From: Desulfobacteraceae bacterium
GTDB lineage: Bacteria > Desulfobacterota > Desulfobacteria > Desulfobacterales > Desulfobacteraceae
Direction: 5' to 3'
DNA: 64,000 bases
Assembly (NCBI GenBank): GCA_016744295.1
Contig: JADGEQ010000029.1
Coordinates: forward strand, 27,929 to 91,928
In this document: one piece after another, positions 4,701-27,771 of the stretch
Numbering within the stretch: the first letter of the stretch is position 1
How the letters are laid out: each line of letters opens with the position of its first letter
Notes under the pieces: model-generated
The model's database searches: none
Told to the model about the DNA's origin: nothing
Seen by the model: only the letters and a program-made list of their open reading frames with translations
Made by a program: the position numbers and the translations under genes

Positions 4701-5191
4701 TTTCTTTTTTTATAAGTTTTTTGGGTTCTATGTTGACAAGAAAACCAAAAATGGTCATGCTGAGAATAATAATACATAAAATTCGTCGCGAAAGCTAGGG
4801 CAGATATCCTTATTCCCCTCCACGAAGCCAGATTTACAACCCTCTATCTATGTTATTGGAAAGTTTTCTTTGCCATTATATCTTTCTGACAACCCCTTGT
4901 TTTTATGCACAATAACAGCATGATATTTTTTTTGATTTTTTTATTTGTGCCACAACGTGGTATGTGCTATACTCATATTTATTTTAACAAGAGGCGGCTG
5001 GAACAAACGAGCAAAAAAGCTGGGTCTGCTGAAATTTCCGGAATAAATTCGCAGAACCCAGGATCAGTTATTTAGTCTCCTACGCCAACCTCTTCAATAA
5101 AACAAAGGATTTTCATGCCTTACGCGTTGTGCATAATTTGGAGCAACTTAAGTTAGCAACCCATTTTCAAATCAATTCAAAGGAGATACTT

Positions 5192-7153
5192 ATGGCCAGT
5201 GACAAACCCATCAATAAACAAGTGAGTTCATCGGAGAGAACCATGTGTGAGGCCACGGCCCAGATGCTGGACAAGGCTCGGCGGGATGGGGTGATAATTG
5301 CCCTTGACCGGGGGTATGAGATGAAACCTTGTCCCATCGGAGTGGAGTCTGCCTGTTGCAAGCACTGCTACATGGGCCCCTGCCGCCTGAACCCCAGAGA
5401 CCCTTATAAAAAAGTCGGGGTCTGCGGTGCCACCATTGACACCATCATGGCCAGAAATTTGGCCCGGAATGTGGCCACGGGTTCCGCTTCCCATAATGAC
5501 CACGGCATGCACATTCTTAAATTATTCAAGGAGATTGTAGACGGGCGCGTCAAGGATTTTTCCATTCAAGACACAATCAAGCTGGAGCGGGTGGCTAAAT
5601 CCATTGGCATTGATGTTGAGGGTAAAGAGGTCTATGCAGTGGCCAAGGAGCTCTATGTTGAGCTGGAAAAAACCTTTTCCAATGTGGATGGGGAGATGCC
5701 CTTTACCCGGCGGGCACCCAAGGCAACCCTGGAACAATGGCGCAAGGACGGCATCGTTCCCAGGGGCGCCATGCGGGAAGTCATGGAAATGATGAGCCGG
5801 ACCCACATCGGATGCGACCAGGAGTATAACAATATCACCAAACAGATCAGCCGGACAGCCCTTGCCGACGGATGGGGCGGCTCCATGGTGGCAACGGAAC
5901 TGTCCGACATTATGTTCGGTACCCCCTCTCCCACGGTGGCTGAGGTCAACATGGGGGTTCTTAAGGAAGACCATGTGAATGTCATTGTCCATGGCCATGA
6001 ACCGGCCATGTTTGAAGGGATGCTGGCAGCGGTCAGCGACCCCTTCTTTGTTGAAGAGGCCAAGGCCAAGGGTGCTGCAGGCATCAACCTTGTGGGAATG
6101 TGCTGTTCAGGGGCGGAGATGATGTCCCGGCATGGCATTCCCCATGCAGGCAATTTCAGTTCAACAGAAGCGGTATTGGTCACCGGAGCCGTGGATGCCA
6201 TGGTCGTGGATATCCAGTGCATCAAGCAGGGATTGGCGTCAATTGCCAAATGCTATGACACCCATTTAATTACCACCAACTCAAGGGCCCATATTGAAGG
6301 GGCCACCCATATTGAGTTTGAAGAGCAGGATCCAAGGGGTTGTACCGACCAGGTTTTAATAAAGGCCATCGCCCGTTTTGGCTCCAGAAGCATGCCCATT
6401 GAAATTCCGAAACAGGTTCAAAAAGGAGTTCACGGATTCACCCATGAATACATTGAATACATGCTGGGCGGTACCTTCAGGGGATCCTATTCTCCCTTGA
6501 ACGAGAACATTATCAATGGCAGAATCCGTGGGGTAGCCGGTGTTGTGGGCTGTACCAACCCCAAGGTCAAACAGGATTCATTCCATGTGGCCCTGGTACA
6601 AGAACTGATCCGAAATGATGTTCTGGTTCTCCAGACCGGGTGCTCCCAGATTGCCCTTGCAAAGGCAGGATTTTTGACACCGGAAGCAGCCCCCCTGGCA
6701 GGCCCTGGCCTGTCGGAAGTTTGTGAAACCGTTGGCATACCGCCGGTCCTGGGGCTGGGTTCCTGTGTGGATAATACCCGGATTCTCATAGCCGCCTCGG
6801 CCATGGTGGAAGCAGGAGGCCTTGGCAACAGCATTGCCGATCTTCCCGTTGCCGGGTGTGCACCCGAATGGATGAGTGAAAAAGCCCTGGCCATTGGTCA
6901 GTACTTTGTGGCGTCCGGGGTCTACACGGTCTTTGGCATTGGGTTTCCCACCATCAAAGGAACGAAGTTCCATGACCTGCTCTTTAACGGGCTTGAACAA
7001 CAGGGATATGGAAAATGGGGAACCGCAGCTGACCCCATTGAAATTGCCCAGATGATGATTGCCCATATTGATAAAAAACGAAAAGAACTGGGCATTGACA
7101 AAACAAGGGAAAGAACCCTTGTGGACATGTCCGACAGGCGGGATATTGCCTGA
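5192..7153 (+). CDS. cooS: Anaerobic Ni carbon-monoxide dehydrogenase catalytic subunit
   Basis: ESACCKHCYMGPCRLNP...VCGATIDTIMARNLARNVATGSASHNDHG; HGHEPAMFEGM; GVVGCTNPK; VLQTGCSQIALAKAG; GLGSCVDNTR. Start at 5192 after AGGAGATACTT. Confidence 0.95.
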   Translation: MASDKPINKQVSSSERTMCEATAQMLDKARRDGVIIALDRGYEMKPCPIGVESACCKHCYMGPCRLNPRDPYKKVGVCGATIDTIMARNLARNVATGSASHNDHGMHILKLFKEIVDGRVKDFSIQDTIKLERVAKSIGIDVEGKEVYAVAKELYVELEKTFSNVDGEMPFTRRAPKATLEQWRKDGIVPRGAMREVMEMMSRTHIGCDQEYNNITKQISRTALADGWGGSMVATELSDIMFGTPSPTVAEVNMGVLKEDHVNVIVHGHEPAMFEGMLAAVSDPFFVEEAKAKGAAGINLVGMCCSGAEMMSRHGIPHAGNFSSTEAVLVTGAVDAMVVDIQCIKQGLASIAKCYDTHLITTNSRAHIEGATHIEFEEQDPRGCTDQVLIKAIARFGSRSMPIEIPKQVQKGVHGFTHEYIEYMLGGTFRGSYSPLNENIINGRIRGVAGVVGCTNPKVKQDSFHVALVQELIRNDVLVLQTGCSQIALAKAGFLTPEAAPLAGPGLSEVCETVGIPPVLGLGSCVDNTRILIAASAMVEAGGLGNSIADLPVAGCAPEWMSEKALAIGQYFVASGVYTVFGIGFPTIKGTKFHDLLFNGLEQQGYGKWGTAADPIEIAQMMIAHIDKKRKELGIDKTRERTLVDMSDRRDIA

Positions 7154-9881: not shown

Positions 9882-11057
9882 ATGAATGTACTGGTAATCA
9901 ACACGGGCAGTTCTTCATTAAAATATCAGCTGTTTGACATGAACAGTCAGGCCGTCCTGGCTGGCGGTGTCATGGAAAGGATTGGAGAAACAAAGGGAAT
10001 ACTGACCCATAAAGAGTTCTCCACGGGCAGAGAAGTAAAAACAAAAAAAACACCCGTCATCCAAAACCACCAGGAAGCCATGCATTTGATGGCAAAACTC
10101 ATCACCCAAAAAATTGACGCCATCGGTCACCGGGTGGTCCAGGGGGGTGAAAACTTCAAGACCGCCACCCCGATAAATGGGGATGTTAAAAATGCAATCC
10201 AGGCAAACAATCCCCTGGCACCCTTGCACAATCCCCCCAACCTCATCGGAATTCAACTGGCTGAGGATCTGTTCCCGGGCAAGCCCCAGGTGGCCGTCTT
10301 TGACACCAATTTTCACCAGACCATTCCGGAAAAAGCCTATCTCTATGCACTGCCCTATGAATACTATACAGATTATAAAATTCGCAAATATGGCTTCCAC
10401 GGCACCTCCCATAAATATGTGGCCAACAAGACCGCCGCACTCATGGGGAAAAAGCCCGATCAAGTGAATCTGATCACCCTTCACCTGGGCAATGGCTGTT
10501 CCATTAGCGCCATTAAAAAAGGGGAATGCCAGGACACCTCCATGGGCATGACCCCCCTGGCCGGAGTGATGATGGGAACCAGAACCGGTAACCTTGACCC
10601 GGCTATCTTCGGATATTTAATGGACAACACCGGCATGACACAGGCTCAAATTGACGATGTTCTGAACAAAAAAAGCGGGCTCAAGGGCATCTGCGGGCTC
10701 AATGACCTGCGGGACATCCATGAGAGGGCTGCCCAGGGCGACAAATTGGCGAAACTTGCCGTTGAAATGTTTGCCTACCAGATCAAAAAATATATTGGGG
10801 CCTATGCAGCCGTGCTCGGCCATGTGGACGGACTGGTGTTTACTGCCGGTGTCGGGGAAAATGATGAAATCGTCCGGGCCAAAGCCCTGGCAGACATGTC
10901 TGTTTTCGGCATTGAAATTGACCTTGCCAAAAATGATATCAGATCCTCTGAACCCCACACGATCCACAAGGAGGGCAGCCGGCTCCAGGTGTGGGTGGTA
11001 CCCACCAATGAGGAACTCCAGATTGCCACGGAGACCTGCCAGGTGTTAACAAAATAG
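9882..11057 (+). CDS. ackA: Acetate kinase
   Basis: MNVLVINTGSSSLKYQLFD; YGFHGTSHKYV; ITLHLGNGCSISAI; DTSMGMTPLAGVMMGTRTGNLDPAI; VFTAGVGEND. Confidence 0.97.
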   Translation: MNVLVINTGSSSLKYQLFDMNSQAVLAGGVMERIGETKGILTHKEFSTGREVKTKKTPVIQNHQEAMHLMAKLITQKIDAIGHRVVQGGENFKTATPINGDVKNAIQANNPLAPLHNPPNLIGIQLAEDLFPGKPQVAVFDTNFHQTIPEKAYLYALPYEYYTDYKIRKYGFHGTSHKYVANKTAALMGKKPDQVNLITLHLGNGCSISAIKKGECQDTSMGMTPLAGVMMGTRTGNLDPAIFGYLMDNTGMTQAQIDDVLNKKSGLKGICGLNDLRDIHERAAQGDKLAKLAVEMFAYQIKKYIGAYAAVLGHVDGLVFTAGVGENDEIVRAKALADMSVFGIEIDLAKNDIRSSEPHTIHKEGSRLQVWVVPTNEELQIATETCQVLTK

Positions 11058-11451
11058 CGCTGAGTTTTGGTCCATATACAAGGTGCATTAAAAGTTGCAT
11101 ACTATATTCAGCCTTTGATTCAACGAAGTAGATGGACCAAAATCTGCATTTTTCACTCATCGATGTCAATCTCTGGAAAATGAGTTCCATCTTTCAAAAA
11201 AGAGGTGGACTATTATTGATAGCCAGCCGCCGCTTAATGGCCCCTTGGAAAAGGAATATTGATTTTTACGCGATAGCTCCCTTTGATATTATCCTTAAGG
11301 TCAACTTCATATGATGTGTATTTGGATAACTTCTGACGTGAATAGCTGAGTGGTACTCGTATCGGTGGTTTCTTTAATGGTTCTGGGGTTGATGCTGGAA
11401 GGTAGGTGGCGGTACTGGCTTGGATGGGTACTGCATATTAATAGTTATTAT

Positions 11452-11826
11452 TCATTCGGAGCATAAAAAAACTGCTGCCTTATTCGTGTCATTAAACGCA
11501 CAATATTTAAATGGAAGTCGGGTAGCCATATTAATAAATAAATCTGCCATAGCCTTGTGCATCTGTCCTGGGACGACAATAGCAGATTTGTTTGCAAAAT
11601 CTTTTTCTTTTGGTTTGTAAAGGCTCAGAACACCCGCAATTTCTTTCAGATCCCCAATCGTTAATCCCATTGTGGAATCAGACAAATCCCAAAGTGAATG
11701 CTTGTACAAATACTCTGAATGCTGCATAAGTTCAGATATAGCGGCAACAAAACTTACTTTTTCTATAATGCCCGATACCGTAATTTTTATATACTTTTCA
11801 TGGGATGCATCAAGTGCATAAGCCAT
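11452..11826 (-). CDS. SpoIIAA/STAS-like small protein
   Basis: 124 aa, HEKYIKITVSGIIEKVSFVAAISELM...SLWDLSDSTMGLTIGDLKEIAG resembles SpoIIAA-like folds. Weak by-eye call. Confidence 0.5.
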   Translation of the reverse strand: MAYALDASHEKYIKITVSGIIEKVSFVAAISELMQHSEYLYKHSLWDLSDSTMGLTIGDLKEIAGVLSLYKPKEKDFANKSAIVVPGQMHKAMADLFINMATRLPFKYCAFNDTNKAAVFLCSE

Positions 11827-19738: not shown

Positions 19739-19776
19739 GGAGAAGGGCTTTTTGGGGTCAGTAGGCCCCTATTTTC
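19731..19776. terminator. Bidirectional hairpin overlapping the ends of two convergent genes
   Basis: gaaaataggg ... cccTATTTTC: 10-bp perfect stem 19731-19740 / 19767-19776. Confidence 0.6.
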
Positions 19777-22178
19777 ATCTCGTAAAAATCGATCCCATGG
19801 GTTTCTCCAGTGTTTTTTTTAACCTCTGTTATCCTGCACCGGCTGTCGGGATTGTACAAGGTGATGGCGGTATTCGGCCCAAACACCCGGGTGCCGGACC
19901 GGATTTTTTTGCCCACACGTACCTGGGCCAGGGGCTGTTTTCTGGCGGTAAACTCCAGCAGCCGTTTTTTCTCCTCTGCCAGAGCCAGGTTCAGCTCTTC
20001 AAATTGTTTGATTCGGTTCTTTTTCTGTGAAATTTCCAACTCAATGGCATCCTGTCGTTCAAATTGGCAATTGATCTTTTCTTCTGCCTGGGCTGCATCT
20101 ATTTTGAGCTGCTTGGCCGCCTGTTTTACCTTTTGATAAGCCGCCATATTTCCCGAAGCCTTCAGATCGCCTATTTTGCTTTCAATCTTTTGCAATTCCA
20201 ACTGGGCCCGGTCCTGTACATGGGCATGTTGGGATATTTCTCCATGGAGACTGGCATCCTCTCGCTCAAGGATTGAGATCTCTTTTTTCAAGAGAGCTGC
20301 TGCCTCGGAATGAATCCGCATTTTCTCCGCCACCAATGCCACCAGCCGGTTAGTATGTTCGTCCACCCCCACCACAAGTTTGGCCGGGCTTGAAGCGTCC
20401 GTTCCGATGTTTCCGGCATCTATACCCATGTTGGCCGATATCTGGGAGGCAATGATGGTTCCATTGGTATTGATACAGGCACCGGAAAGCTGGATAATTG
20501 AATCCATGATTTCCCGTTGAACAATGAGATCCCCAAAGGCATTGATCGTTGAGTTGTGGATATATTTGGCCTGGACAGATCCTTTTACATTGACCAATTG
20601 TGTATCCACTATCCCTAGAGAAACATTCAAATCCCCGGTCAGGTCAATTTGGGCCCCTTCTATGGCCCTGGCCGTCAAGGAGGCTCCTTTCACTTTAAAG
20701 CCCTGTTTGACAACCCCTTCCACCACCACATTGCCTTCAAAAATCACATCCCCTGTTTCAAATCCCAAATCCCCCTTGATTTTCAGCTCCGGGCAGATGG
20801 TCACCTTGCCCATGGCATCCAGGTGGGGCTGGCCGTCAATTTCGGCATAGATTTTGTTCCCCTCTTCGGAAAGCCGGGTGCCGGGACCTGCTTCAAAAGC
20901 TCTGTCAATGGGGTCTCCTACCAGGATTTCTCGACCCGTCACGTCGATGCCGTCTTTCCCCTTTTTCGGAGATATCTTGGCTGCCAAAAAGGCATTTTTG
21001 CTCACAAAAGGGATTTCTCCCCTTTCCCTGAAATTGATGCTGCCATCCTCGTCCACCTTTCCGACATGACGAAAATCAGTGGAAAAATGGTAGTTGATGA
21101 CCGCATCTCCCGGAGGGACCGGTGCGAGTCCCCGGGCGATAACAAAGGGCTTGTTTTTTTCGGTCACAGACAGGAGCCAGGATCGGATGGTGCTGTCCGC
21201 TTCAATGCCATAGTTAATATTGTGCCAGAATAAAAAATACTTGATAATGGTCAGGTCCAGAATCCGGGGTTCCTTTTTTTTTACCTGAATAAAGGCTGTG
21301 GACCCGTCAGGGGAGAGGGTTATCTGGAGGTGGTTATCCAGGTATTGTTGGAATTCTTTCCCAAACAGATTCATCTTTGCCGCATTGCTCTGGTATAACA
21401 GCATCCGGATGGATGGGATCAGGGTTGCGGTCAGGTCGGCAAAGGGGTTGTCCTGGCCGGACCGATAGAGCGCATCTCTATAATACAGTGGGCTAAGCTC
21501 AATGGAGTGGCGAAAGACAGCGGTTTCAAGGATCAGCTTGACCTGTTCTTTGACTTTTATAAACTGGGCACCCAATCCCTGGGCGGACAATTCAACCTGT
21601 TTTGCTCCCAGGATTTCTTTTAAGGAAGGAATTTTATCAGGATTTATCGCCCCTTTTCCGATCTTTAATTTTGATTCAAGAATCCGTATTTGCCGCTGGC
21701 GATCTGATATTTGGACCAGGTCCGAGGCTTCCTGCTTTTTGAAATTACTGGCAATCTGAAACAATTGTCGATTTTGGCGCTGGGTAATTCTTTGAAGATT
21801 GTTAAGTTTCACGGAGGCTTGATACTGCTGACTGCACGCTTCCACCTGGACAATCAGGTCATGATCATCAAAGGGGAGGGTGAGGCAGGAATGGATCTGG
21901 GCCGTATTGATGGCAGAGAAAATGATCTCAAGATAAGCGGCATCCGCCATGAGAATACGAAGGGTTGAAGGCGATGCCTCCCTGGCCTTTAACAAAATTT
22001 GGTCCCCCTTCATTTTCGGCATGGCATAGCTTGCAATAATAACGGCATAGGGAAAATTTCCGGCATCTTTCAGGGCAAGCAGGCCAGCGACAGCGGTGTC
22101 AAAACAATGAACCTCAAACCCCTTTGCCGATAAAAGGTATTCCAACTGGGATCGTACCGAATCCAGGGCCTCAATCAC
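19758..22178 (-). CDS. FapA/DUF342 polymerising-domain protein with degenerate N-terminal receiver
   Basis: DUF342 block VARGLAPVPPGDAVINYHF...DEDGSINFRERGEIPFVSKNAFLAAKISPKKGKDGIDVTGREI...IEGAQIDLTGDLNVSLGI. The start codon is uncertain; the track start is GTG at 22178. Confidence 0.82.
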   Translation of the reverse strand: MIEALDSVRSQLEYLLSAKGFEVHCFDTAVAGLLALKDAGNFPYAVIIASYAMPKMKGDQILLKAREASPSTLRILMADAAYLEIIFSAINTAQIHSCLTLPFDDHDLIVQVEACSQQYQASVKLNNLQRITQRQNRQLFQIASNFKKQEASDLVQISDRQRQIRILESKLKIGKGAINPDKIPSLKEILGAKQVELSAQGLGAQFIKVKEQVKLILETAVFRHSIELSPLYYRDALYRSGQDNPFADLTATLIPSIRMLLYQSNAAKMNLFGKEFQQYLDNHLQITLSPDGSTAFIQVKKKEPRILDLTIIKYFLFWHNINYGIEADSTIRSWLLSVTEKNKPFVIARGLAPVPPGDAVINYHFSTDFRHVGKVDEDGSINFRERGEIPFVSKNAFLAAKISPKKGKDGIDVTGREILVGDPIDRAFEAGPGTRLSEEGNKIYAEIDGQPHLDAMGKVTICPELKIKGDLGFETGDVIFEGNVVVEGVVKQGFKVKGASLTARAIEGAQIDLTGDLNVSLGIVDTQLVNVKGSVQAKYIHNSTINAFGDLIVQREIMDSIIQLSGACINTNGTIIASQISANMGIDAGNIGTDASSPAKLVVGVDEHTNRLVALVAEKMRIHSEAAALLKKEISILEREDASLHGEISQHAHVQDRAQLELQKIESKIGDLKASGNMAAYQKVKQAAKQLKIDAAQAEEKINCQFERQDAIELEISQKKNRIKQFEELNLALAEEKKRLLEFTARKQPLAQVRVGKKIRSGTRVFGPNTAITLYNPDSRCRITEVKKNTGETHGIDFYEMKIGAY

Positions 22179-22220: not shown

Positions 22221-25106
22221 TTACAGGTTAAGGGTCTGATGGGTGATTTGTTTCGGATTGTCCGGATTTTGAGAATCAATTTCCATGAATTTTGACATGC
22301 CGATGTCATCGCCAAGGATGGTGGAAGCCATGGTTCCCATGATCTTAGTTCCCCGGTAAAGTTTTTTGTTGACCTTGAGGATGGGAATGGGATCTTCTCG
22401 CTCAAGCCTTTTGGTGGCCCCTTCCTTTTCTTTTTGCAGGTCCGCAATCTCCTGATTCAGCGCCTCGATTTTTGTGTCGCAATCCTGGATCTTATTCATC
22501 ACCCCATCCTGGGCTTCAAAAATTGTTTTAATGCGCTCATCTGCCTGTTCAATACTGGCTTCAATCTCTTTGAGCTCATTGACTAACTTTTGTTTTTCTT
22601 CTTTGCCTGATGCCTTGCCCATCATTTTTTCCAGAAACTCCATCTTTTTATTCAGCTTTTCCTGGGCAAAGGTCTGGTTGGCCACATCAACATGGAGCCC
22701 ATTATAATTTTCGTCATGGGATCGTTTTGTATCGATGATCTCATCCAGTTTCCTTTGAAGGGTGTCGATTTTAGCCTCAAATTTTTCGGCAATCCATCGG
22801 ATATGGTCATCAACCCCTGTTTTGATGGTGGAGGGTTCCGCCTTTTCCGTACCAATCTGTTTGACACTCAATCCCATCCTGGCGCCAATATGGGAAGCGG
22901 TTATCCTGCCGGCCTCATTGGCCAGTGCCCCTGAGATGAGGATACGGGATCCCATGATTTCCCGGGTGATCATCATATTCCCATGGGCAAATATTTTGAC
23001 ATTGTTGAGAAACTTTGCCTGGACATTTCCCTGGGTTTCAATATGGGAATTGACAATTCCGTTAGATACCTTAAGATCCCCCCGGATAAGGATGGTTGCC
23101 CCATTGATCTCATTTGCCGTCAGGTCATCACATTCCACCATAAATCCCTCTTTTACCATACCGGTCACCAACACATTTCCCTTAAAGTTTATGTTTCCTG
23201 TTTTAAAGTCCACATCCCCCTTAACAATGAATTGTTCCAGAACGCTGATGATGCCCTTGGCATCCATACTGGGTTGCCCCTGGATGGTGGCGGTCAGTTG
23301 CAGTTCATCTTCGGAAAATTTCACCCCTTCTCCTCCCAACAGGGGGATGTCCTCCACCTCTCCCACCAGAAGGGTTTCACCAAAAATATCTATGCCGGGT
23401 CTGGGATGTTCCATGTTTTTTTTTTCTGCCAGGAGCTGGCCTTTTTTCACAAAGGGTGAATCCCCCCTGGCGGAAAAATCAATGGAACCATCTTCCCGGA
23501 TCACCCCTGCGGCATCATGCTCGGTATTGAAATGGTAAATAATTCGGGCAGGGTTGCCCACACTGGCGGGCACCCCCCTGGCCACCACAAATTTTTCATG
23601 GGGATCGGTACAAGTTTGAACAAAGTTTCGAATCTCACTGTCGGGTAAAATTCCGTTTTTGATGCCCCGTTTCTTGACCATCTGCTTGATGGGGGTGATA
23701 TCTGTTGTCCCCTGTACTGTTTTGGGAACCCGTATCCAGGCTTCCACCCGGTCTTGGGACACCTGGAGATCCACAAAGGCGCCAAATTCCGAAGAAAAGG
23801 CAGCACCCGGGTCCATGGTTTTCTTTTTTCCCCCGGATCTGTCCTGCCCAGCCATGATCTCATCCCTCAACTCCGATGCGATAACCTCCGATTCCACCAG
23901 AATATCGCCGATGAGCATGGAAACCCCACTGTCTTCAAAATAGTTTAATTGTTTGCGGAGGGCCCTGTCCACATCCTTTTTGCTGGCAACCTCACGGTCC
24001 ATGAGCATTTTTCCAAACTCCCTGTCCAGCAACCGGGTTTCGATGAGCGCCATTTTGGCAAATAGCCGGCTTAGGTCTTTTCTCTGGAGAAACCCTTGGG
24101 AAATAAGCACCTTGTCGATGGTCAGACCGGTTGATTGTTCCGCTTCTTTCTCCTCCAGCTCATCCTGGGCCTTTTCAAATTCACCCCTGGTAATACATCC
24201 GTCATTAAAGGCCAGGGTGCCAAAATCAGGCAACTCTTTATAATCATCAATGAGAATGCCCGCAGTGGGTTCGGATCCAATGCCGAACAAGGTGGGCTCA
24301 ACTGCCTGGACCACATTTTCAATAATCTGGTCTATGATCTCGAAGGTATCGTCTTCAAGGTTGTCAATATTGGCGGGCATGCCCGCCGGAGAAAAAGGGA
24401 TCTTGCTTCTTTGGGCGATTTCCCCAAGGGTGGCCACAACTTCCGTCCTGGAAATAGAGAAAGCTTCTGCCAGGTTTTTCTGGTTCATGGTGATGGTCCG
24501 GGAAAGCAATTCATCCAGCCCAAGAAACACCTCTTTGTATTCCGCCTGTTCCTTATCCTCGGCCAGGGTCTGGGTCAAAGAATCCACTTGTTTTTTTTTG
24601 GTTTCAAGCTGTGCCGTGAAATCTTTTAGCTTTTTTTTCATGCCGGCAGCAATGTCGAATAGCTTGGCATTCTGGTGACGGGTAAGATTGAACAATCGTT
24701 TTCTTTCCTGAAATTGCTTATAAATATCCAGCTCCCCCAGGATTTTGAGCAACAAATCGTCATTGTTCCATGGTTTTGAAATATATTGGTGGATTTCTCC
24801 TTTGTTGACCGCATCCACAATGGCCTCAAAATTGGAATATCCTGTCATCAGCATCCGCCTCGATTCAGGGCTGAGCAATATGCTTTTTTCCAAAAATTCG
24901 CTACCGGAAATACCCGGCATCCGCTGGTCCGACATGATCAGAAAAAAATGATTCCGGGTATCTTCCAGCAACTTTATGCCCTGTTCTGCACTCAGGGCAG
25001 AGATCACCTTGTCAAATCCTTTCCGCTTTAACACCCGTCTCATGTTTTTTACGATGGGTTCGTCGTCATCCACCACCAGAATCGCATATTCATCTGTGTT
25101 CGGCAT
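22221..25106 (-). CDS. Response regulator with MshEN-like segment and FapA/DUF342 domain
   Basis: MPNTDEYAILVVDDDEPIVKN...FLIMSDQRMPGISG...KPWNND; IGDILVESEVIASELRDEI; DUF342 VARGVPASVGNPARIIYHFN...IREDGSIDFSARGDSPFVKKGQLLAEK. Start at 25106, 1 nt after the upstream gene. Confidence 0.87.
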   Translation of the reverse strand: MPNTDEYAILVVDDDEPIVKNMRRVLKRKGFDKVISALSAEQGIKLLEDTRNHFFLIMSDQRMPGISGSEFLEKSILLSPESRRMLMTGYSNFEAIVDAVNKGEIHQYISKPWNNDDLLLKILGELDIYKQFQERKRLFNLTRHQNAKLFDIAAGMKKKLKDFTAQLETKKKQVDSLTQTLAEDKEQAEYKEVFLGLDELLSRTITMNQKNLAEAFSISRTEVVATLGEIAQRSKIPFSPAGMPANIDNLEDDTFEIIDQIIENVVQAVEPTLFGIGSEPTAGILIDDYKELPDFGTLAFNDGCITRGEFEKAQDELEEKEAEQSTGLTIDKVLISQGFLQRKDLSRLFAKMALIETRLLDREFGKMLMDREVASKKDVDRALRKQLNYFEDSGVSMLIGDILVESEVIASELRDEIMAGQDRSGGKKKTMDPGAAFSSEFGAFVDLQVSQDRVEAWIRVPKTVQGTTDITPIKQMVKKRGIKNGILPDSEIRNFVQTCTDPHEKFVVARGVPASVGNPARIIYHFNTEHDAAGVIREDGSIDFSARGDSPFVKKGQLLAEKKNMEHPRPGIDIFGETLLVGEVEDIPLLGGEGVKFSEDELQLTATIQGQPSMDAKGIISVLEQFIVKGDVDFKTGNINFKGNVLVTGMVKEGFMVECDDLTANEINGATILIRGDLKVSNGIVNSHIETQGNVQAKFLNNVKIFAHGNMMITREIMGSRILISGALANEAGRITASHIGARMGLSVKQIGTEKAEPSTIKTGVDDHIRWIAEKFEAKIDTLQRKLDEIIDTKRSHDENYNGLHVDVANQTFAQEKLNKKMEFLEKMMGKASGKEEKQKLVNELKEIEASIEQADERIKTIFEAQDGVMNKIQDCDTKIEALNQEIADLQKEKEGATKRLEREDPIPILKVNKKLYRGTKIMGTMASTILGDDIGMSKFMEIDSQNPDNPKQITHQTLNL

Positions 25107-25107
25107 C

Positions 25108-25863
25108 TTATCTCCCCGGGATGTTATCGGGCATTTCAAATCCGTTTCTGGTTGCAATATCCTGGAATTGTTCAAACAGCTCTGCCATTATGGCAGCATA
25201 GAGTGTGTTGAGTTTTTCCTTTTCCAAAAGATTGTTTTCCTTGAGCAAGGCTTCTATTTCATTGATATAGTTCCGATTTTCAAATCCGATTTCCAGTCGC
25301 TTTTTGAGTTGTTCTACTTCCTTGTCCCGTTGAATAATGGCTCGCTGATGGACGACGGAACTTTTTTTCAAATCTGTATTCAAGGCGAATAATTTCGCAT
25401 TCTGGGCCTTGGCAAGCTTGAAGAGCCTTTCATTCTCAATGATCAATTCATACTGTTCCAAGCCCGCCTTTATGGTTTCAATACAGGCATCCTTGTTCCA
25501 GGGCTTGGTCATATACCGGTGAATGGACCCTTTGTTCACCGCCTTGGTAACGGCATCCACATCGGCATAGCCCGTAAGGAGAAAACGGATGGTATTTGGG
25601 GTTATTTTTTTTGCTTTTTCCAGAAATTCATCACCTTCCATCCCCGGCATCCGCTGATCTGAAATAATGAGGGAAAAGGGGGTTGCCGCAGATCTTATCC
25701 GGTCAAGGCCTGCCTGTCCGGAGTCCATGTACACATATCTAGCGCCGATCTGTTTCATTAATCTGCCAAGTGCTTTTCCAACTTGTTCTTCATCATCGAC
25801 GATTAATATGGTGTGATCAAATTTACCTGCCATCAAACCTCCATCTGACGCCATGAACCACAA
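25108..25863 (-). CDS. Response regulator (REC plus coiled-coil tail)
   Basis: HTILIVDDEEQVGKALGRLM...LIISDQRMPGMEG...FLLTGYADVDAV...MTKPWNKD. Confidence 0.88.
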   Translation of the reverse strand: MWFMASDGGLMAGKFDHTILIVDDEEQVGKALGRLMKQIGARYVYMDSGQAGLDRIRSAATPFSLIISDQRMPGMEGDEFLEKAKKITPNTIRFLLTGYADVDAVTKAVNKGSIHRYMTKPWNKDACIETIKAGLEQYELIIENERLFKLAKAQNAKLFALNTDLKKSSVVHQRAIIQRDKEVEQLKKRLEIGFENRNYINEIEALLKENNLLEKEKLNTLYAAIMAELFEQFQDIATRNGFEMPDNIPGR

Positions 25864-26167
25864 CGGTCAGCATCTCTTAGGTAGTCTTAGATTCAGTATA
25901 AAATTGTTCTGTCGCCTATATTGGCCTACCATGGGAGTTTAAGGCCTGGGCAACCGCTACTTTTTGTTTGTTCGCGCTCGGAATAAATTTTACTCGGTAA
26001 TGTTTTTTTTCTCAAGTGTTTTTTCCGATCATTTGTTGTTCCGACTTAAAATAAAGATTGAAATTCCCCCAGGAATTACATATGTTTAAAGGCGTAAATT
26101 CCAAACGAGTCTTTCTTCAACAGACCATGGGTGTCACCACACTTAAGTGCCAAGTTAAGGATATACA

Positions 26168-26917
26168 ATGAAGTCGATCCCTCAGATAGCTCAAGAGCTG
26201 GATATTTCTTCAACCACCATCAGGGAATATCTAAAACAGTTTAACAAATTTTTTGCAGATCCGGTAGAGCATGAAGGGGTAAAAGAATATCCGGATGAAA
26301 CCCTTGATCTGGCCCGACGGATTCACGAATATTACCAAACAACGGAAATGACAAAAGAAGAAATTCGGATCAAGCTTGGCGGCATTCAGGATTCCGAGGA
26401 TAACCCGCCTGCCGCCATGGCCATTGCATCCCCCATGGACACAGCACAAGTTTCACTTCTGGGAGAAAAGCTGGATCATTTGATATCAGTGATTGAAAAC
26501 CTGACAAACGCTCTTACCGGTTCAGGTGGCAAATTATTTCCCACTGTTAAAAAAAAAATCGGCAGCAATGAAAAACTCAACGAGATAAAAGCCCAGATAA
26601 CGGATATCATCGAAATGAGCAAGGGCAATGATAGTGAAAATCTTGAGGAAAACGTGCTGGCGGCAGACGGATCGATTATTTTTTCCTATGGAAGGCTTTC
26701 CCCCAATGCAGCAGATACCCTGAATTTCGCAAAGGCCCATAAAAAACCGTGGCTCCACATTGACCTTGAAACGGAAAAAAATCCCTCCCCCATTCTCCGT
26801 AAATGGCTGAATCAATTTCAGGTAAAAGTGCTGAATGTGGCGGGTAAAAGTGCCAGCAAGGTGCCGGGGCTGCAAAAATCGGTAAATGATATTATCTCCC
26901 TTGTTCTCAAGGAATAA
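26168..26917 (+). CDS. MerR-like HTH protein with C-terminal cpYpsA/putative-molybdenum-carrier-like half domain
   Basis: N-term SIPQIAQELDISSTTIREYLKQFNKFF; C-term VLAADGSIIFSYGRLSPNAADTLNFAKAHKKPWLHIDLE...KWLNQFQVKVLNVAGKSASKVPGLQKSVNDII resembles the second half of the putative molybdenum carrier family. Confidence 0.65.
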   Translation: MKSIPQIAQELDISSTTIREYLKQFNKFFADPVEHEGVKEYPDETLDLARRIHEYYQTTEMTKEEIRIKLGGIQDSEDNPPAAMAIASPMDTAQVSLLGEKLDHLISVIENLTNALTGSGGKLFPTVKKKIGSNEKLNEIKAQITDIIEMSKGNDSENLEENVLAADGSIIFSYGRLSPNAADTLNFAKAHKKPWLHIDLETEKNPSPILRKWLNQFQVKVLNVAGKSASKVPGLQKSVNDIISLVLKE

Positions 26918-26934
26918 TTTATAATAACAGGTGA

Positions 26935-27771
26935 ATGAAATTGGGATATATTTATATTTCCTATTGTGTACTCTTATCCTTGCTGACAATGGCAGCCTGT
27001 TTCAGGCTCAAACAACCAAAATGGTGGGCAGCGGTGATCTTGTTATTGCCCGTTGCGATCCCTTTTTTTATCCGTAAATCAAAAAAAAACACTGGCACTA
27101 TTTGGATGGCAGCCTTTTTTATCTCCTTTTTTGCCGTGGCAGGCACAGAATATTTTCTCTATACCTCAAACCAGAAAAAAGAGAACCGCCCCCCACCCAT
27201 TGTCCGGGAAATGATCCGGCTTAATAAGGGGGTGAAAACCTCCACCATTGAATTGTACAATGCATCGGCAAAACTCCAAAGCCTGACCATGGCCCAGTCA
27301 AGGATTACAGACCTTAAAACAGCCCTTGATCTCATTAAAGAGGTCCGGCAGCTGATCAAAAAAAATCAGGCAGCCATTGACGTTCTTAACGCTTATATTC
27401 AGAAACATGACAATTATATAAAACGAAAGAATCTGTCCTGGGCATTTTTGATCCACGAATTCTATACCGATCAGACTGTGACAAGTCACCGTCATTCCCG
27501 GAAAAATTATCTTTCGGCCTTTGAAGGCATGCTGCAATACACCCACGACAATTTTGATAACATAATGGAACTGCAGAGTTCCCAGCACATGGCAAACTAC
27601 GACGCGTATTATATGCGGTACCGGACGGTGGCCGACAACCACAACCGTACAAATAGAAAGAGGATCGGTTTCCAAAAAGGATTTATTCAAAAAAATCCTT
27701 TGGTCAAACCGTTTCTGCCCGGGGCGCACCAACTGGGAGCCTTTAAATTCTGGGATAAGTTTTCATTTTAA
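26935..27771 (+). CDS. Conserved membrane-anchored protein of unknown function
   Basis: Two to three N-terminal TM segments then a soluble helical domain; 17 nt after the HTH/SLOG-like gene on the same strand. Confidence 0.6.
   Translation: MKLGYIYISYCVLLSLLTMAACFRLKQPKWWAAVILLLPVAIPFFIRKSKKNTGTIWMAAFFISFFAVAGTEYFLYTSNQKKENRPPPIVREMIRLNKGVKTSTIELYNASAKLQSLTMAQSRITDLKTALDLIKEVRQLIKKNQAAIDVLNAYIQKHDNYIKRKNLSWAFLIHEFYTDQTVTSHRHSRKNYLSAFEGMLQYTHDNFDNIMELQSSQHMANYDAYYMRYRTVADNHNRTNRKRIGFQKGFIQKNPLVKPFLPGAHQLGAFKFWDKFSF

Follow-up and report, generated by a model that had tools for sequence, protein, structure and literature searches.

The open reading frame at 26168-26917 on the plus strand of the window, a stretch of 64,000 nucleotides from a Desulfobacteraceae bacterium, encodes a protein in which a MerR-like winged helix-turn-helix (HTH) is fused to a truncated cpYpsA domain. 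The architecture is real and represents a variation on the MerR-like regulators in which the SLOG domain is degenerate. The best explanation, to which we assign a probability of about 0.55, is that the protein is a DNA-binding transcription regulator dedicated to its own locus, where it would control the adjacent receiver/FapA cassette. The frame is intact, starts with ATG and is organized as follows.

26168..26917, plus strand: HTH-truncated-cpYpsA protein of 249 aa (open reading frame; orthologs in 15 genomes)
26168..26383, plus strand: MerR-like winged HTH, residues 1-72 (Pfam PF13411, AF2, Foldseek)
26384..26581, plus strand: variable linker with predicted helices, possibly a coiled coil (AF2 helices, raised dN)
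26582..26914, plus strand: truncated, motif-less cpYpsA domain (pseudo-SLOG), residues 139-249 (PF12694, AF2 core, Foldseek match to 3imk, motif loss)

With regard to the domains, PF13411 (MerR_1) matches residues 3-68 (E 7e-5) above its own cut-off, which identifies the N-terminus as a winged HTH of the MerR type. PF12694 (cpYpsA) matches residues 146-245 with a score of 69.4 bits against a curated cut-off of 26.2 (E 3.6e-19). This match covers profile positions 44-143 of 145, and positions 1-43, including the SGGQTGxDRAAL loop, are missing. Thus both the HTH-truncated-cpYpsA composition and the absence of the GGQTG loop, which an earlier note had read from the letters of the DNA, were borne out. 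The same note estimated the remnant at about 85 aa or half of the domain; the assignment to cpYpsA stood but the extent did not, since about 100-110 aa or roughly two thirds of the domain are present. The architecture is also unusual as claimed, and no description of an HTH with truncated cpYpsA was found in the libraries searched, which fall short of a full domain-architecture database. A literature search by name retrieved no paper on cpYpsA. The same genome also encodes a full cpYpsA with the GGQTG loop (L002, 270 aa), so the truncation is specific to the HTH protein.

AF2 modelling of the whole protein with 11 orthologs as input gave a mean pLDDT of 58.7, with HTH residues 1-70 at 73-89 and the remainder poor; helices of the linker were predicted at residues 92-117 and 133-151 with pLDDT below 50, so the coiled coil given in the earlier note amounts to a helix prediction of low confidence. 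When residues 117-249 were modelled with 46 homologs, an alpha/beta core reached pLDDT 86-95. The top PDB match of this second model in Foldseek was 3imk, the crystal structure of cpYpsA (E 9.5e-8, probability 1.00), which was the only PDB match below E 0.001, and the ortholog profile matched the 3imk sequence at residues 57-156 of 158. The cpYpsA fold was thus upheld against assignment of the C-terminus to a different fold. According to the model and the Foldseek alignment, the truncated domain keeps the Rossmannoid fold and lacks the first strand-helix unit. The HTH resembled that of GlnR (TMt 0.65 over 72 columns), and the full-length model gave weak structural matches to MerR proteins, none of them below E 0.001, with CarH as a distant match (E 4e-3). 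In profile comparison, CadR reached only E 0.04.

To characterize the degeneration of the domain, we compared 13 fused with 33 full cpYpsA domains. The R158 column is Arg in 32 of the 33 full domains and in none of the fused ones. The G179-G180-S181 columns, conserved in 27, 32 and 32 of the 33 full domains, are mostly occupied by Pro/Thr, Asn/Ser and Ala after fusion; Ser of the S181 column is replaced by Ala in 13/13, and Gly of the G180 column persists in 2/13. Similarly, the T184 column (Thr in 31/33) became Ser, Thr or Ala, and the Y236 column (Tyr in 30/33) became Lys or Gln. The columns D167-G168, S173xG175xL177, P194, H197xD199, W213, LNVAG at 222-226, S230 and P233 are kept in the fused domains. 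No GGQTGxD-type motif was found upstream of the truncated domain in any fused member, and among 76 distinct domain matches, those with no visible N-terminal glycine loop are the HTH fusions, the single receiver fusion and sequences that are degenerate, frameshifted or cut by a contig end. The fused domain is a pseudo-SLOG, in which both glycine (phosphate-binding) loops are lost and the fold core is kept. The half ligand domain proposed earlier was correct as to truncation but understated the loss, because the GGS loop has gone too.

SLOG domains are known to bind or produce nucleotides in systems of signalling and conflict. Judging from the lost motifs, canonical binding of a ligand or nucleotide by the truncated domain is unlikely, and loss of the motif residues with the core kept suggests another use of that core. 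In Bacillus subtilis YpsA, G53 and E55 of the glycine/acid motif, which are predicted to bind the substrate, are needed for activity (PMC6459960). A ligand-sensing one-component regulator is a rather doubtful alternative: the truncated domain would bind a small molecule such as a nucleotide or an ADP-ribose derivative through the DGxxxFSxG and LNVAGxxASK loops that it still has, and a second subunit might complete it, much as in CarH-like MerR regulators, which have a Rossmann-type sensor. The DG, SxGxL, HxDL and LNVAGxxASKxP stretches are equally conserved in fused and full domains, and the distant match to CarH is in line with such sensing, but the GGQTG and GGS loops and the R158 and Y236 columns are lost in the fused members, and the residues that remain may have a purely structural role.

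The same architecture occurs in 15 genomes (G000, G001, G002, G003, G005, G009, G059, G366, G371, G375, G381, G383, G388, G390 and G395), belonging to Desulfobacteraceae and, in one case, to another family of the order, with 55-83% identity over the full length. These are bacteria of the sulfate-reducer type, for which most of the knowledge comes from environmental genomes. Sampling of 395 genomes across the phylum yielded no further orthologs. In the domain tree, the fused domains and the one receiver fusion form a single group (support 100/100), which is placed with short standalone cpYpsA of the same family and not with the long ones (98/88). The fused domain thus has a single origin beside the short standalone lineage. 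Short standalone cpYpsA genes were also seen adjoining a gene for a MobA/VirD2-type relaxase (L078:704-2917, L079:1339-3910, L080:210-2203), which was confirmed by Pfam in L078 and resembles it in sequence type in L079 and L080; in L080 a phosphoribosyltransferase-like protein follows the short cpYpsA. This arrangement is possibly a mobile-element cassette. A phage origin was rejected, as the HTH protein had no match in phage records. In the plasmid collection, the matches were confined to full cpYpsA genes and to the N-terminus, which matched a MerR regulator encoded on a Desulforapulum plasmid. On L084, a replicon of 68,709 bases whose match positions are those of the Desulforapulum autotrophicum plasmid NC_012109, tandem-duplicated MerR-like HTH proteins (4936-5901 and 10683-11648) share a related N-terminus and have a different C-terminus.

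Between close relatives, the HTH and the C-terminal domain each had a dN of about 0.06-0.08 and a dS of about 0.6-1.3 (dN/dS about 0.06-0.1), while dN of the linker was about 0.2, a two- to threefold excess over the domains on either side. Both domains are under purifying selection and the gene is not decaying. A decaying fusion without function might be suspected from the lost binding motifs, but it is very improbable in view of these ratios, the conserved promoters described below and the intact frame in 14 genomes, the copy of the fifteenth (G381) being cut solely by the contig end.

The neighbourhood of the gene includes the following genes.

25108..25833, minus strand: receiver-domain protein of 241 aa, counted from a conserved ATG (PF00072)
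22221..25175, minus strand: receiver, FapA_N and FapA beta-solenoid protein (PF00072, PF20250, PF03961)
19758..22178, minus strand: second receiver and FapA protein (weak receiver match)
26935..27771, plus strand: membrane protein with no Pfam family (kept in 8/14 ortholog loci)

The HTH gene is divergent from the receiver, receiver-FapA, receiver-FapA operon at all 15 loci, as far as the contigs reach, a conserved partner that the earlier note overlooked. Because the gene always stands back to back with the receiver/FapA genes, it is most likely a dedicated switch of those genes. The start codon and ribosome site of the single-receiver gene align across orthologs, and orthologs of the first receiver-FapA protein beside the HTH gene are 61-86% identical. 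The receiver of the second FapA protein falls below the Pfam cut-off, its acceptor-aspartate position is apparently serine (IIASYAMP), and it is probably a pseudo-receiver. On the other side, the membrane protein gene begins 17 nt behind the HTH gene, with a 4-nt start/stop overlap in L120, and probably belongs to the same operon; its conservation downstream does not fit the orphan status given to it before. In several relatives, the next gene after that of the membrane protein encodes a DUF3786-type protein (L032:7688-8275, confirmed by Pfam; L034:5253-5840; L120:3727-4317), and there is no such gene at this place in the window.

The cassette also occurs without the HTH gene, both in the close relatives G034 and G004 and in more distant forms that neighbour CheA/CheW or CheR genes. 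The HTH gene therefore seems to have been added to the cassette and is not essential to it. In three further loci, a FapA_N gene adjoins the HTH gene on the opposite flank, and in G009 CheW, MCP, CheD and further che-type genes follow, where CheA, CheB and CheR were named from sequence only. In Vibrio, FapA functions in flagellar assembly and is bound by EIIAGlc in its dephosphorylated form (PMC6877527). The FapA proteins of the cassette may have a flagellar link by homology only, and a flagellar/chemosensory or cell-surface programme is the probable output.

A related G019 gene (L076:15558-16133, the same gene in L009) encodes a receiver fused to the same truncated domain, with PF00072 at residues 3-94, where the receiver breaks off at 90 of 111 positions, and PF12694 at profile positions 44-144; cheD and HDOD genes come next. 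This fusion gives some room to the idea, which we consider improbable, that the HTH serves protein-protein contact or structure and the protein is a signalling adaptor that does not bind DNA, as it shows the domain existing apart from an HTH. However, it was seen once, its receiver is incomplete, and the HTH is constrained as much as the C-terminal domain. The truncated domain of G019 is closest to that of G009 from the same genus, and the fusion may be a deletion product of a che-linked locus like that of G009, or an assembly artefact.

Between the divergent genes, a scan detected exactly two sigma-70-like promoter-like sites, back to back.

26058..26086, plus strand: promoter-like site of the HTH gene, TTGAAA, 17 nt, TATGTT (scan; counterpart in orthologs)
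25987..26015, minus strand: promoter-like site of the divergent operon, TTGAGA, 17 nt, TAAAAT (scan; inside a conserved A-tract)

As 1.0 such site is expected by chance in the intergenic region, the weight of these sites rests on their conservation: the minus-strand site is kept with its 17-nt spacer in 14/15 orthologs, and the plus-strand site has a counterpart of the same spacing in 13/15. Their -35 boxes are 42 bp apart. MerR-activated promoters typically have spacers of 19-20 nt, while both adjacent sites have 17 nt; the protein may have other targets. An unconstrained search for operator motifs returned only the promoter/A-tract element and no separate conserved dyad, a search for palindromic operators returned weak AT-rich patterns only, and the A-tract/-35 pattern had 5 matches in the own genome against 5 for the control, giving no evidence of a regulon.

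The dedicated regulator is thus favoured by the fold, the constant divergent cassette, the conserved promoters, the motif loss and the purifying selection, and is weighed down by the missing dyad operator, the 17-nt spacers and the occurrence of the cassette without the HTH gene; on this balance it keeps the probability given at the outset. The HTH would bind the intergenic region as a dimer, between the promoters, and would control both of them, that of the FapA/receiver operon and that of the operon which its gene forms with the membrane protein gene. The divergent promoters suit a local regulator better than a DNA-bound scaffold or spatial marker, which would use its MerR HTH in a RacA-like way and tether FapA/receiver complexes to the nucleoid instead of controlling transcription. 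The long variable linker would agree with such a role, and two citing papers state that HubP recruits FapA to the cell pole in Vibrio vulnificus (PMC12918733, PMC8789113), but we regard a scaffold as unlikely.

In the regulator, the C-terminal domain would take up its signal as a protein-interaction or dimer-completed module, for example from one of the receiver or FapA proteins that the cassette encodes, and not as a nucleotide or molybdate pocket. A more specific and quite tentative version is that the pseudo-SLOG acts as the signal input by pairing with the cassette receiver/FapA or with itself, which would complete the missing strand-helix unit. If this version is true, a transcription factor would give a direct readout of two-component signalling and of a FapA assembly, a new way of coupling receivers to a separate DNA-binding protein. 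A SLOG member without both binding loops and a third of the fold, yet strongly selected in a putative DNA-binding protein, is a defined and testable case of a SLOG domain turned regulatory module. It also provides a candidate regulator for the little-studied receiver-FapA cassettes of Desulfobacterales.

A molybdenum function was also considered and is rejected on the neighbourhood comparison, which revealed no conserved linkage to molybdenum genes. Of the mobB, fmdE and napA neighbourhood invoked earlier as context, mobB lies about 11 kb and a napA-like gene about 5 kb from the HTH gene in the window, behind unrelated signalling genes, and no homologs of the three were found in the flanks read of the ortholog loci. 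"Molybdenum carrier" is an old annotation name of the cpYpsA family; the molybdenum reading, resting on this name and on non-conserved neighbours, is unsupported, and a misleading label is thereby removed.

Among known systems, the closest is cpYpsA itself (PF12694; 3imk, "putative molybdenum carrier protein"; the circularly permuted YpsA SLOG family), with 35% identity over about 100 aligned positions. The HTH protein shares its fold core and the DG, FSxG, HxDL and LNVAGxxASK stretches, but lacks the first 43 profile positions with the GGQTG loop, has lost the GGS loop and the conserved Arg, Thr and Tyr columns, and carries a fused HTH. B. subtilis YpsA, which affects cell division (PMC6459960), also belongs to the SLOG superfamily but has a non-permuted full domain with its activity motifs and no HTH. 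The MerR regulators (CueR, CadR, NmlR, and GlnR for the HTH) are similar in the N-terminal winged HTH, a helical linker (here predicted), the separate C-terminal domain and the divergent gene arrangement. On the other hand, the C-terminal fold of the HTH protein is different, its promoter spacers are 17 nt instead of 19-20 nt, and it contains no cysteine and hence no CueR-type metal site. CarH/LitR proteins consist of a MerR HTH, helices and a Rossmann-type cobalamin domain. The HTH protein follows the same plan of HTH, helical part (here predicted) and Rossmann-like C-terminal domain, but by inspection it is without the cobalamin DxHxxG motif, and its domain is of the SLOG type and not of the B12 type.
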